A stretch of 64,000 nt of DNA, taken from Crocinitomicaceae bacterium. GTDB lineage: Bacteria; Bacteroidota; Bacteroidia; Flavobacteriales_D; Crocinitomicaceae. Position numbers and translations under genes: made by a program. This document shows, piece after piece, positions 1,157 to 59,154 of the stretch. The stretch spans positions 1-64,000 of the forward strand of contig JAQWYK010000024.1 of assembly GCA_029254025.1 (NCBI GenBank). The letters are read 5' to 3'. The notes beneath the pieces are model-generated. The model searched no databases and was not told where the DNA came from. It saw only the letters and a list, made by a program, of their open reading frames with translations. Every line of letters starts with the position of its first letter. Position 1 is the stretch's first letter.

Positions 1157-1924
1157 TTAGGATTCTAAAATCATCTGGCGCATTTTCTCATACAATACGA
1201 TTGAAGCGGCCACACCAACATTGTATGAACCCAATGTTCCTAGTAATGGAATTTTAGCTTTTTGATGGGCTAACTTCAACAATGAATCAGATATTCCGTC
1301 CTCTTCTGAACCCATAATCAGCGCAGTCGGACCTGTTAACGTCGCATCAAAAACAAACGCATCTGTCTTTTCAGTACACGCTACAATTCGGAGACCAGAA
1401 TTCTTTAGAAATTCTACCGACTCATTTAAGTCTCGTACCTTACACACTGGAATTTTATTCAATGCACCAGCAGACGTTTTAATCGCATCGCTTGTAATCA
1501 TTGCAGACTCTTTGGCAGGAATAACAATCGCATGCACTCCGGAGCATTCAGCAGTTCGAGCAATTCCCCCGAAGTTCCGAACATCTGTAATGCGATCGAG
1601 GACAAGAATATTCGGTTCATCGCCCACTTCTTGAATTTGATTCAAAATGTCTTCCAAATTGAAATATTCAACTGGGGAGGTAAAAGCGATAACTCCTTGA
1701 TGATTTTTGTTGGTTAACCGATTCAACTTTTCCACCGGAACAAATTGCAACGTATATTTCTTGTCGGCGAGCACATCCTTCAACTCATAGAACAACTCCT
1801 TATCCATTCCCTTTTGGATCATGATTTTATTGATCTCTCGATTCGATCGAACAGCTTCTATTACTGCTCGAACACCGAAAATAATGTCTGGAATTTCTTC
1901 GTTGCGTGTTCTGTGCATGCCCAT
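1157..1924 (-). CDS. rlmB: 23S rRNA (guanosine-2'-O-)methyltransferase RlmB-like, SpoU/TrmH family
   Basis: A SAM-dependent SPOUT RNA methyltransferase, expected to 2'-O-methylate a guanosine of 23S rRNA. A SpoU substrate-binding N-domain (FGVRAVIEAVRSN) precedes the trefoil-knot catalytic domain, with the motifs LDRITDVRNFGGIARTAE, ALIMGSEEDGIS and PLLGTLGSYNVGVAAS. The reading frame stays open further upstream to 2026. However, a perfect -7 promoter element at 1937-1944 lies inside that extension, and typical family members begin near GVRAV, so ATG 1924 (255 residues) is preferred; ATG 1918 is also possible. RlmB versus another TrmH paralogue cannot be separated without alignment. Confidence 0.9.
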   Translation of the reverse strand: MGMHRTRNEEIPDIIFGVRAVIEAVRSNREINKIMIQKGMDKELFYELKDVLADKKYTLQFVPVEKLNRLTNKNHQGVIAFTSPVEYFNLEDILNQIQEVGDEPNILVLDRITDVRNFGGIARTAECSGVHAIVIPAKESAMITSDAIKTSAGALNKIPVCKVRDLNESVEFLKNSGLRIVACTEKTDAFVFDATLTGPTALIMGSEEDGISDSLLKLAHQKAKIPLLGTLGSYNVGVAASIVLYEKMRQMILES

Positions 1925-4504: not shown

Positions 4505-6250
4505 ATGATTTCGAAAAAATTCTGGCAAACAGTTATTGTTTCTACTATCTTTTTATTGGCAAGTGCATCAATCAGTTTTGCTCAAAATGTCGGGATTAAC
4601 GAACCAAATCCGACACATACATTACACATAAAACCATTGAATGCTGGTGATGAACCCATACGTATAGAAGGTATTCAGTCAGCTATTGGTGGTGAAAATG
4701 GCATGCTTATCCATAATTCTGCGGATGGAATTGTACGATACATTAACTTAGGGCAAGTGAAAGATTCTGTTGATACTCACGTGGACTCCTTGACATTTGA
4801 TAATACGACAAATACCCTTTCTGCTTGGGTAAATGGGACGGCGTACAACACAGTTATTCCAGCAGGGACTGGACAAGACGGAATAGCTTGTTGGGACACT
4901 AACGGCAATGGTGTTCAAGATGCCGCAGAAGACACCAACCTAGATGGTTTTTGGGATGCACTCGATTGTGTGGGTGCTGATGGACCAGCAGGTGCTGATG
5001 GATTAGCTTGTTGGGACGTCAATGGAAACGGAATTGCTGACCCATCTGAGGATACCAACCTAGATGGTATTTGGGATGCTAGTGATTGTGGAGGAACTGG
5101 TCAAGATGGATTATCTTGTTGGGATATTAATGGAAATGGATTAGCCGATCCAGCTGAAGATATTAACGTAGATGGAGCTTGGAATTATTTAGATTGTATT
5201 GGAGCAACTGGTCCAGCAGGACCACAGGGGGCTCAAGGTATTCAAGGAATTCAGGGAACACAAGGACCTGCAGGGCCTACTTGGAACATTACTTCCAATC
5301 AATATAACGCGAATGGTAATACCGTAATCACAACTGACCAACCAGCTTCATTCACATCTACTAGTGCGGCATGGTTGACCACAGGTAACCAAGGAATCAC
5401 TGCAACTAATTTCTTAGGCCCCATTAATGCTACCGATTTAAAATTCAGAACAAATAATCTTGAAAGAATGACAATTGAATCCGACGGTATGATTGGTATC
5501 AATACTCCTACACCATTAGCATATCTTAACTTCGAGGCCAATGCAGTGATGGGAGCTTCAGGATTCCACTTATTGTGGGATGGTAATACTGCAGGGAACC
5601 AATCACTTGCTCGTTTTCAGAATACTCAAACCAACAATGGTTCGAGAGGTGTGTTCGGAATTACCAACTATGATGGAACTACATTCGCTGCTAATGGCGT
5701 TATGGGACTCGCACTTAATGGCGTCGGTACATCAGCAGGAGTAGAAGGTTTTTCCAACAGTAATGATGGTGTAGGTGTTCTCACAGGGTTTATAGGTGGA
5801 AACACACTAGTAAACGGATGGGCTCTGTTTTCTGATGGTTGGGCGGGAGGAACAACAGCTTGGCAAAACATTTCGGACCGTCGTATTAAAAAAGACATTC
5901 AAAACATCGAATCACCTCTTGAGAAAATTAAACAATTAAATGGGGTTACCTATTTTTATGACAATTCTATCTTCCCTGAACTTCGTTTAGACGAAACTAC
6001 GCTACAAATGGGATTCATTGCTCAAGAAATAGAGAGTGTTTTCCCACACTTAGTAAGAGAGGCGAATATCCCTGGGCTTCCTGTAAAAGCGGATAACTCT
6101 ATGAGTCGCAAGCAAACCATGTATCAGTTGAAAACATTCAGTTACTCGAACATTGTTCCACTATTGTTAGAAGGTATCAAAGAGCAGCAAAAAGAAATCG
6201 AGTCATTGGAGCAACGAATAAAGGCGTTGGAAGAAAAAATCGGAAAGTAA
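4505..6250 (+). CDS. Collagen-like/Asp-rich repeat surface protein with C-terminal S74 chaperone domain
   Basis: A 581-residue exported protein with a signal peptide (about 1-27, SISFAQ). Residues about 122-235 hold three modules of the form CWDxNGNGxxDxxED-N-DG-W-DC, each bounded by Cys and rich in EF-hand/TSP3-like Asp-Asn-Gly loops. They are joined by collagen-like Gly-X-Y stretches (GPAGPQGAQGIQGIQG). After a fibre-like middle, residues about 455-581 match the peptidase S74 intramolecular chaperone (ISDRRIKKDI with the Ser/Lys autocleavage motif, MGFIAQEIE), ending in a coiled coil. S74 domains trimerise fibres and then cleave themselves off. ATG 4505 is chosen over an in-frame TTG at 4499. 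It is followed after 30 nt by a T9SS-B protein, probably in one operon. Confidence 0.85.
   Translation: MISKKFWQTVIVSTIFLLASASISFAQNVGINEPNPTHTLHIKPLNAGDEPIRIEGIQSAIGGENGMLIHNSADGIVRYINLGQVKDSVDTHVDSLTFDNTTNTLSAWVNGTAYNTVIPAGTGQDGIACWDTNGNGVQDAAEDTNLDGFWDALDCVGADGPAGADGLACWDVNGNGIADPSEDTNLDGIWDASDCGGTGQDGLSCWDINGNGLADPAEDINVDGAWNYLDCIGATGPAGPQGAQGIQGIQGTQGPAGPTWNITSNQYNANGNTVITTDQPASFTSTSAAWLTTGNQGITATNFLGPINATDLKFRTNNLERMTIESDGMIGINTPTPLAYLNFEANAVMGASGFHLLWDGNTAGNQSLARFQNTQTNNGSRGVFGITNYDGTTFAANGVMGLALNGVGTSAGVEGFSNSNDGVGVLTGFIGGNTLVNGWALFSDGWAGGTTAWQNISDRRIKKDIQNIESPLEKIKQLNGVTYFYDNSIFPELRLDETTLQMGFIAQEIESVFPHLVREANIPGLPVKADNSMSRKQTMYQLKTFSYSNIVPLLLEGIKEQQKEIESLEQRIKALEEKIGK
4871..5215 (+). 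repeat. Three tandem DNA repeats encoding CWD-NGNG modules
   Basis: Three in-frame units begin near 4871, 4991 and 5099, giving periods of about 120 and 108 bp. Each encodes a Gly-rich lead, CWD, NGNG, an ED-N-DG loop and a closing DC. Units diverge mainly at third codon positions, so they look maintained by selection and not freshly duplicated. Confidence 0.8.
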
Positions 6251-9197: not shown

Positions 9198-9705
9198 TCT
9201 TCAAAAATTCGATACGCTGTTTAATTTCCGTTAGACTGTACCAAGGAATCCCCTTGAAGCCGGTTGGTAAATTTAAGGTTATTCGTTCAATTATGCTTTC
9301 ATCTGATTCTAAATAGGCTAACAGGTCACCGATATGTTCAACACTTTCGGGGGCTCCCACTAACTCTCTAATTGGCCCTAAACAGGTTTGTTCGCCTTCA
9401 ATGCCACTCGGCAATAAATTAAACACTCTATTTACGTTCTCCTCGGATACTAGCGATGGATTTAACTTCACAAACAATCCAGCAATCATTTTTTTACGCA
9501 ATACTTGAACTATTCGGTCGATGGGTATGTTTAAATCTTTTCCTTTTGCTTTTGAACTAAAGAACTTACCGTTGATGGATATACCCAAATGAGGCGGCAC
9601 CTTATTCGCATGAATCACACATAAAAAAAAACCCTCTTCCAAGTCTTGATTCTTGAAAAGCGGGACATGCTCAAAACTCGTTAGGTCATAATGTAATCGT
9701 TCCAT
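9169..9705 (-). CDS. Conserved-looking protein of unknown function in the dapF-mltG operon
   Basis: I do not recognise this 178-residue protein. It has no signal peptide or membrane segment. The sequence mixes beta-strand-like stretches (EGFFLCVIHANKVPPHLGIS) with a C-terminal amphipathic part ending in FLKNDKGRKNTP. The frame is open back to 9768, but that would overlap dapF by 83 nt. ATG 9705 (MERLHYDLTSF) leaves a 20-nt overlap and is the more economical start. Position between dapF and a GNAT/mltG pair suggests an envelope or housekeeping job, which is only inference. Confidence 0.7.
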   Translation of the reverse strand: MERLHYDLTSFEHVPLFKNQDLEEGFFLCVIHANKVPPHLGISINGKFFSSKAKGKDLNIPIDRIVQVLRKKMIAGLFVKLNPSLVSEENVNRVFNLLPSGIEGEQTCLGPIRELVGAPESVEHIGDLLAYLESDESIIERITLNLPTGFKGIPWYSLTEIKQRIEFLKNDKGRKNTP

Positions 9706-55858: not shown

Positions 55859-55900
55859 AAAAAAAAGCAAAAGGTCATTGAATCTTCAATAACCTTTTGC
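55859..55900 (-). terminator. Terminator hairpin of gyrB, also in the leader of the next gene
   Basis: Positions 55867-55882 pair with 55885-55900 (about 15 bp, one mismatch, 2-nt turn; arms GCAAAAGGT and ACCTTTTGC). On the minus strand eight T follow at 55859-55866. It lies 20 nt after the gyrB stop and ends 6 nt before ATG 55852. Confidence 0.85.
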
Positions 55901-55920: not shown

Positions 55921-57885
<1,965 letters not shown>

Positions 57886-57978: not shown

Positions 57979-58133
57979 TCTTTAAAACACTTCGTTTTCC
58001 ACGGACTTATTAACAATCAAACACAAATTAATTGCAAACAATAAACTTTTAAATCCCTAATGTTTTTCATCTAAGAAATAGACAGATTAGTCGAAAAAAA
58101 CAATTAACTCTATGGTTTCTGAAGTTCTCCAAC

Positions 58134-58220
58134 TAAATTTGTGATGATTTAGGTGGTTAGGTTAGGTTGATTAGTAAATGGGAGGTAGACGCCAGTCTTC
58201 TTCCCATTTACGTTTTTATT
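58134..58220 (+). ncRNA. Candidate orphan small RNA of about 70 nt between gyrB and its divergent neighbour
   Basis: A perfect -7 element TAAATTTG (58134-58141) predicts transcription from about 58146. The RNA would begin with a G/U-rich stretch holding three TTAGG words. It would end with a long hairpin: 58174-58185 pairs with 58200-58211, and an inner stem 58187-58190 pairs with 58195-58198 around the loop GCCA. The hairpin is followed by GTTTTTATT. No reading frame is present, and the next gene has its own promoter at 58231-58261, so the hairpin terminates something separate. Confidence 0.5.
58174..58220 (+). terminator. Strong plus-strand hairpin with T tract in a divergent intergenic region
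   Basis: GTAAATGGGA (58174-58183) pairs perfectly with TCCCATTTAC (58202-58211). A nested AGAC/GTCT stem extends the helix to about 16 bp with one mismatch. GTTTTTATT follows. There is no T tract in the minus direction. Confidence 0.75.
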
Positions 58221-58230
58221 GGCAACTGCA

Positions 58231-58261
58231 TTGCCCATCTGTGTATAAGCTATTATATTTG
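58231..58261 (+). promoter_or_regulatory. Promoter of the IF2-N-like gene
   Basis: TTG (58231-58233), 20 nt, then TATATTTG and C (58254-58261), a perfect -7 match, 17 nt before ATG 58279. Confidence 0.75.
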
Positions 58262-58278
58262 CACAAAAAAGATACACC

Positions 58279-59154
58279 ATGCGACTAGGTCAACTTTCCC
58301 GAAAACTACAGGTTAAAACAGCCGAAATCATTGATATCCTTCAATCAAACTTTGACATTGTCATTAGTAATCATCCTAACCGCAAAGTTCCAAATGAAGT
58401 GGTGGTTGAACTTGAAAAACTATTCCATCAAAGTGGTTCTACTTCTGAAGTAAAGGAACCTATGTCTAGTACCGTCGATTCTGAACCTGTTCATCAAGAA
58501 GCTGCGGCATCTATCGAAAATGAAACAGCCCAGGAAGGAGAATTGGAAGCCAAGTTAATTGAAGATGCTAATGCTTCTAAGCAAGAAGACATTTCAGTTA
58601 AGGAGGATAACCCGGCAGAAGATATACTTACTGATGTGGACCTTAATATTGTAGACGGAATAATCAAAGCGCCCAAGGTTGAAGTTGCAGGAATCAAAGT
58701 AGTAGGGAAAATAGAATTACCTGAAAAGAAAAACGAAGTTATTGAGGATGAAAACACTGAAGTGAATGCTGAGCAATCAGAACCTTCTTCTAATGAGGAA
58801 ACGGATAATCTAGTAACTGTCCCTAATGAACCTAAGGAAGTACTTAAAAACGCAAATAAAAGAACCTCTGATAGAAAGCGTAGCGAACGTAAAAGTCGAA
58901 CCAAACGAGTTGAAAAGCAATTACTTACTCCTGAGGAAGAACGTAGAATTCAGTTAAAAGAAGCACAAAAGAAAAAAATTGCTGAGCAACAGGCGAAAAA
59001 GGAACAGCGGCGAAAAACCTATAATGAAGATATGAAAAGTGTTCAAAAAACAGTTTCTTCAGGAAAAAAGAAAAAAACAGCCTCCTCAAAACCGCAAAAA
59101 AAATCCAAACCAACTTCTCTTTGGGGTATATTCTTACATTGGTTAAACGATTAA
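58279..59154 (+). CDS. Charged protein with IF2-N-like N-terminal domain
   Basis: A 291-residue cytosolic protein. Residues 1-50 (MRLGQLSRKLQVKTAEIIDI, VPNEVVVELEKLF) resemble the N-terminal subdomain of initiation factor IF-2, a small helical RNA-binding module. An acidic, low-complexity middle follows (about 55-195), then a strongly basic stretch (about 197-275; NKRTSDRKRSERKSRTKRVE) and a hydrophobic tail SLWGIFLHWLND. The layout suggests RNA or ribosome binding, which is inference. A DUF4268 gene follows after 10 nt, in one operon. Confidence 0.78.
   Translation: MRLGQLSRKLQVKTAEIIDILQSNFDIVISNHPNRKVPNEVVVELEKLFHQSGSTSEVKEPMSSTVDSEPVHQEAAASIENETAQEGELEAKLIEDANASKQEDISVKEDNPAEDILTDVDLNIVDGIIKAPKVEVAGIKVVGKIELPEKKNEVIEDENTEVNAEQSEPSSNEETDNLVTVPNEPKEVLKNANKRTSDRKRSERKSRTKRVEKQLLTPEEERRIQLKEAQKKKIAEQQAKKEQRRKTYNEDMKSVQKTVSSGKKKKTASSKPQKKSKPTSLWGIFLHWLND

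Follow-up and report, generated by a model that had tools for sequence, protein, structure and literature searches.

Outside the gut Bacteroides, the small RNAs of Bacteroidota have received little attention, and the usual RNA chaperone, Hfq, is missing from these bacteria. The closest described system is FopS of Bacteroides thetaiotaomicron, a family of 14 copies of ~65-70 nt, each made of a single-stranded 5' seed and a terminator (PMC11697453). FopS pairs at susC starts and represses susC mRNAs, and the RRM protein RbpB binds FopS and opposes it (PMC11697453). Here, we describe an RNA family of the Crocinitomicaceae with the same plan; the family is new, the kind of RNA is already known. 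We start from a window of 64,000 nt (the whole stretch of DNA that was analysed), which comes from a 2.7-Mb draft genome; named relatives with the element place this genome in the Crocinitomicaceae. Judging from its sequence and that of its relatives, the segment 58146-58218 is almost certainly an independent RNA gene belonging to a conserved family. Computation supports the promoter, the RNA ends, the structure with its covariation, the spread in the family and the multicopy state, whereas expression, trans action, mRNA pairing and the parts played by the RRM protein and the loop are inferred.

The earlier note on this DNA had proposed an orphan small RNA between gyrB and the next gene, preceded by a perfect -7 element, and TAAATTTG matches the Bacteroidota consensus TAnnTTTG fully (Table 1). 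The hairpin and T tract that it described are also present. The hairpin begins 33 nt 3' of the -7 element: 58174-58185 pair with 58200-58211 in a 12-bp stem, above which come a T-T mismatch and then 4 bp closing a GCCA loop (58191-58194), and GTTTTTATT follows the hairpin. The predicted energy of the fold, -25.6 kcal/mol (z = -3.9), was reached by none of 200 shuffles. A simple terminator scan of the window did not list this hairpin, probably because the T-T mismatch interrupts the stem 4 bp below the loop. The 5' half has TAG in all three frames and thus no open frame, as the note had stated. It was also right that the neighbours cannot use the terminator, since gyrB, on the minus strand, is read away from it and the next gene is preceded by a separate TATATTTG. 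Its length estimate of about 70 nt is roughly correct, the probable start giving ~73 nt. As a separate observation, gyrB is followed directly by a strong intrinsic terminator of its own (55867-55900, minus strand; 15 bp stem, eight T).

Table 1. Features of the small RNA locus in the window, and of related RNA types.
Feature	Position	Strand	Remarks
gyrB	55921-57879	minus	confirmed by Pfam
-33 promoter element TATG (consensus TTTG)	58111-58114	plus	3/4 match; 19 nt 5' of the -7 element
-7 promoter element TAAATTTG	58134-58141	plus	perfect TAnnTTTG; -12 to -5 of the predicted start
Predicted small RNA, type A, ~73 nt	58146-58218	plus	covariance model R1: 90.6 bits, E 1e-18
5' tract GATTTAGGTGGTTAGGTTAGGTTGATTA, single-stranded, C-less	58146-58173	plus	presumed to pair or to bind protein
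Terminator hairpin, 12 bp + mismatch + 4 bp	58174-58211	plus	fold and two-sided changes
Conserved loop ACGCCAGT (ACGCCNGU)	58189-58196	plus	loop kept among family terminator hairpins
T tract, intrinsic terminator	58213-58220	plus	
Promoter element TATATTTG of the next gene	58254-58261	plus	outside the small RNA; kept in sister species
Next gene, unassigned; IF2-N-like according to the earlier note	58279-59154	plus	
Type B copy, own TATCTTTG	G000:C22:125743-125779 (L175)	minus	
Type F copy	G000:C22:150466-150509 (L188)	plus	
5' end of type B			AGUAGUAGUAGGUUAGGUUGAUUAGUGU
5' end of type C			GGUUUAGUUGUAAAAGGUAGGUUAGGUUAGG
5' end of type F			UUAGUAGUUAGGUUUCAUAAGUAGUAGUGU

The same layout recurs throughout the family: TAnnTTTG, four bases, GATTTAGGTGGTTAGGTTAGGTTGATTA, a copy-specific hairpin stem with the loop ACGCCNGT, and then T's. 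Among 110 distinct copies, the promoter spacing is fixed, with TAnnTTTG at -12 to -5 relative to the G of GATTTAGG. At -12, the element is exact in 61 of these copies and one base off in a further 34, compared with 2.7% of shuffles having an exact element at any position. Upstream, 19 bases before the -7 element, a TTTG signal is visible at -35 to -32 (T63 T76 T64 G54, in per cent of the 110 copies). A sigma-A box has been mapped at -12 to -5 in Flavobacterium psychrophilum (PMC9723704), and the promoter distance agrees with that layout. The probable transcript start is at GAUUUAGG, position 58146.

The second line of evidence comes from the stem. A covariance search in related genomes, which had been suggested as a check on the original proposal, showed that 10 of the 11 pairs of the terminator helix carry two-sided changes, with 97% paired, in a set of 96 distinct copies (A2) that was fitted to the model and is hence biased towards it. 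In the BLAST-based set A1 (26 copies), which was not fitted, 9 of 11 stem pairs have two-sided changes and 95.4% of cells are paired, versus 50-57% with slid partners. Since stem pairing is conserved through two-sided changes in A2, a chance origin of the hairpin is excluded. In the sister species, 71 of the 73 RNA bases are kept, bearing out the expected conservation in a close relative, and the adjoining intergenic DNA is much diverged. Of the two substitutions, one makes a T-G pair of the T-T mismatch and the other replaces an A-U pair by G-U. Covariation and fixed promoter spacing are thus two independent signs that the locus is an RNA.

Promoter, 5' tract and terminator recur as one unit at unrelated loci in dozens of species. 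The commonest position is downstream of a WbqC-family gene (a neighbour cluster of 24 members), common to several genera. In the window's genus the copy lies upstream of gyrB: the alignment with the sister species extends into gyrB, and the sister contig (L055) has an opposite-strand neighbour of 652 aa, the same length as gyrB. In Lishizhenia tianjinensis (L099, 4686-5488), four type-A copies stand in tandem within ~0.8 kb, each with its own terminator. Given the unrelated loci and the tandem copies, the unit therefore works independently of its neighbours. The original proposal of an orphan small RNA is supported by the three parts occurring together, but the word 'orphan' holds only in part, the family being multicopy.

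This placement bears on the alternative that the RNA belongs to the downstream IF2-N-like gene, as its leader attenuator (an idea also put forward in the earlier note) or 5' UTR. In the window the RNA and this gene do share a strand, with 60 nt between the RNA and the start codon; however, the gene is served by a separate promoter that the sister species retains, and the same-direction placement is not family-wide. Both neighbours could be called for 79 copies, and in 51 of these the RNA and the downstream gene lie on opposite strands, which excludes a general attenuator role. A leader function is barely credible for the copy in the window.

The dispersed and tandem copies could also be read as a small mobile or repeat element, a parasitic RNA gene unit without cellular function, and copies on two viral contigs agree with this. 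Against it, the covarying stem and kept loop indicate selection on the RNA, and the position beside the WbqC-family gene is common across genera; we consider such an element quite improbable. One of the viral contigs (L147) carries a type-A copy at 5936-6006 together with Mu-type portal and head-morphogenesis genes. On the other (L146), a type-A copy at 9323-9396 adjoins a D12-class DNA methylase beside host genes.

The covariance model built for the family (R1) was run over 240 Crocinitomicaceae genomes. It matched 99 of them, in 16 of 24 genera (genome groups as assigned in the search collection), with up to 12 copies per genome; this count includes weaker matches that represent diverged 5' types. 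With a query of 171 bases, relatives turned up in 16 of 59 genomes and in no other family. Searching the GTDB species genomes for an exact 22-mer returned 84 stretches, mainly from Fluviicola, Brumimicrobium, Lishizhenia and unnamed Flavobacteriales; sets collected in this way exaggerate the conservation of the 5' tract, and set A1 gives the same picture of the tract with a few G-to-A changes. In an order-wide search, all 81 positives fell inside the Crocinitomicaceae. Outside the family, a sample of the phylum yielded 13 weak matches (E 3e-5 to 1e-3); 11 of the 12 inspected lack the repeated tract and resemble ordinary terminators. The twelfth is a type-B copy (G709:C120:3374-3448, L275) on a 3.6-kb contig in a draft genome of another family, possibly a horizontal transfer or a stray contig. 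No Rfam covariance model, 6S and Flavo-1 included, matched even when relaxed to E = 5, blastn found no match in phage and plasmid collections, and the open-licence literature yielded no paper on small RNAs of Crocinitomicaceae. Some database labels deserve a comment. CP034120.1 (G095; L079, L080, L090), titled Glaciecola amylolytica, bears several copies; G095 is placed in the Crocinitomicaceae, and the label is probably wrong. Drafts titled Chryseobacterium gleum, Kuenenia and Actinomyces viscosus that bear copies also seem to belong to this family.

The weaker R1 matches are related RNAs with other 5' ends, plus a shortened type A. The window's genome has one each of types A (the copy in the window), B and F, the latter two with different UAG-repeat 5' ends and a common ACGCCCGT terminator loop. 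In type A, the 5' half is single-stranded, C-less and built of UAGG repeats: the 28-nt tract and the next base hold four UAG and three UAGG. Every 5' type, though otherwise different, bears 4-5 UAG. Three structural candidates involving this tract were considered. A two-layer G-quadruplex (GG-U-GG-UUA-GG-UUA-GG) could form but is not a strict requirement, since one of the paired Gs is missing from several copies. A 5' hairpin proposed by RNAalifold is not supported: it has 5 of 8 pairs invariant and none with a two-sided change, and is worth only ~2 kcal/mol. A pseudoknot between loop and tract (CGCC with GGUG) fails on reading the copies, types B and F having no GGUG.

The terminator is distinctive as well. 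Its stem is rewritten among copies yet stays paired, and the loop ACGCCNGU is kept. In 0.99 Mb of fetched DNA, all 61 terminator hairpins with an ACKCCNGT-type loop come after a TAGGTT tract, whereas none of 52 other tetraloop terminators has such a loop; because the tract was used to fetch the loci, selection enters in part into the first figure but not into the second. At one locus (L194, G149:C94, ~1496-1560, minus strand), a distinct terminator hairpin comes after the one with ACGCCTGT. This arrangement suggests that the loop may be conserved for its own sake, with a role beyond termination.

What might such an RNA do? The base-pairing regulator is our first guess because the family has the same plan as FopS. 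By analogy with FopS and GibS, the RNA most likely acts in trans, its UUAGG tract pairing with a limited set of mRNAs; this is the best of the explanations, at about even odds. A primary-sigma promoter would drive an autonomous small-RNA gene at 58146-58218, starting at GAUUUAGG. The transcript, once expressed, would expose a 28-nt unstructured, C-less 5' tract and end at an intrinsic terminator with the conserved loop ACGCCNGU, which could provide a second contact. Hfq was not found in the genome, and we therefore consider its one RRM_1 protein, of 128 aa and encoded at G000:C12:12486, as a partner that perhaps assists or opposes pairing.

The searches for targets qualify this reading. The earlier note had suggested that the TTAGG repeats act as an antisense seed; the 5' tract is indeed the most conserved part, but an extended antisense target and an enrichment at start codons were both absent. 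In seven genomes, a 20-nt antisense sequence with up to 3 mismatches occurred only in the RNA genes themselves and at one chance-like 3-mismatch site. Start-codon regions were not enriched for tract pairing, and if anything were depleted, in two genome samples (stretches totalling ~400 kb each, not restricted to susC). For example, 49 of 362 genes in G000 reached -16 kcal/mol or below, versus 84.9 +/- 14.4 for shuffled tracts, which preserve base but not dinucleotide composition. Both tests miss short seeds and few targets. The top single pairing candidates (e.g. a sugar-transferase-like gene, L240) were indistinguishable from shuffled tracts and were set aside.

The missing extended target is also what a protein sponge would predict, in which the UAG/UAGG units bind an RbpB-like RRM-domain protein, the family titrates it and copy number sets the dose. 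The UAG units shared by the otherwise different 5' types fit this idea, as does the preference reported for B. thetaiotaomicron RbpB, 5'-GUAGGAUA-3' (PMC12119571). RRM_1 is found in 93 of the 99 RNA-positive genomes, the window's genome included, but also in 121 of the 141 RNA-negative ones, and one genus (g4), with both genomes 96-97% complete, has the RNA and no RRM_1 match. Moreover, each RNA offers few sites, and the near-identical 5' sequence between genera exceeds what a repeated 3-4 nt motif needs. A sponge is the main rival, possible though doubtful. We think it unlikely that the family consists of phage-borne multicopy UAGG sponges that titrate an RRM protein, with the ACGCCNGU loop as a second recognition element, in the manner of CsrB but acting on an RRM protein. 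A ribosome-directed RNA would rest on the resemblance of AGGUGGU and AGGUUGAU to the complement of the 16S rRNA 3' end (the anti-Shine-Dalgarno region), judged against the general 16S 3' end. AGGUUGAU is common to types A and B, but type F lacks it, and this role appears very improbable.

The family occurs in culturable aquatic genera (Fluviicola, Brumimicrobium, Lishizhenia), where it offers a test of regulation by RRM proteins and small RNAs in the phylum. A predicted exact 5' end, a conserved loop and a phage-carried copy are assets of this RNA family, and its covariance model could enter Rfam.

Among known systems, CsrB-type RNAs titrate CsrA through repeated GGA sites. The likeness of CsrB/RsmZ to the present RNA lies only in how they work, through repeated short motifs of a protein-binding kind; here UAGG is single-stranded, whereas GGA sits in hairpin loops, and the present RNA is much shorter and its binding putative. 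The small RNAs of Flavobacterium psychrophilum, Rfp18 among them, come from related bacteria and share the sigma-A layout and a structured intergenic RNA (PMC9723704). Rfp18, however, is predicted to pair via its third stem-loop (PMC9723704), and the Crocinitomicaceae family was not found elsewhere in its order. GibS of B. thetaiotaomicron (Ryan et al. 2020, PMC7366714) likewise has a conserved single-stranded 5' seed, but is 145 nt long with a non-canonical promoter and, FopS paralogs aside, has another architecture (PMC7366714). FopS is nearest, although Bacteroides belongs to another bacterial order and family; FopS is said to be in Rfam, where the window has no match to E = 5, and the two are compared by description. 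Both are multicopy (the window's genome itself having one type-A copy plus two related RNAs) and ~65-73 nt long, with a primary-sigma promoter and a conserved single-stranded 5' end, after which comes nothing but the terminator hairpin. Both live in hosts with RRM proteins and no classical RNA chaperone, and a phage copy is reported for both. The conserved terminator loop ACGCCNGU and the UAGG-repeat 5' end set the Crocinitomicaceae family apart.
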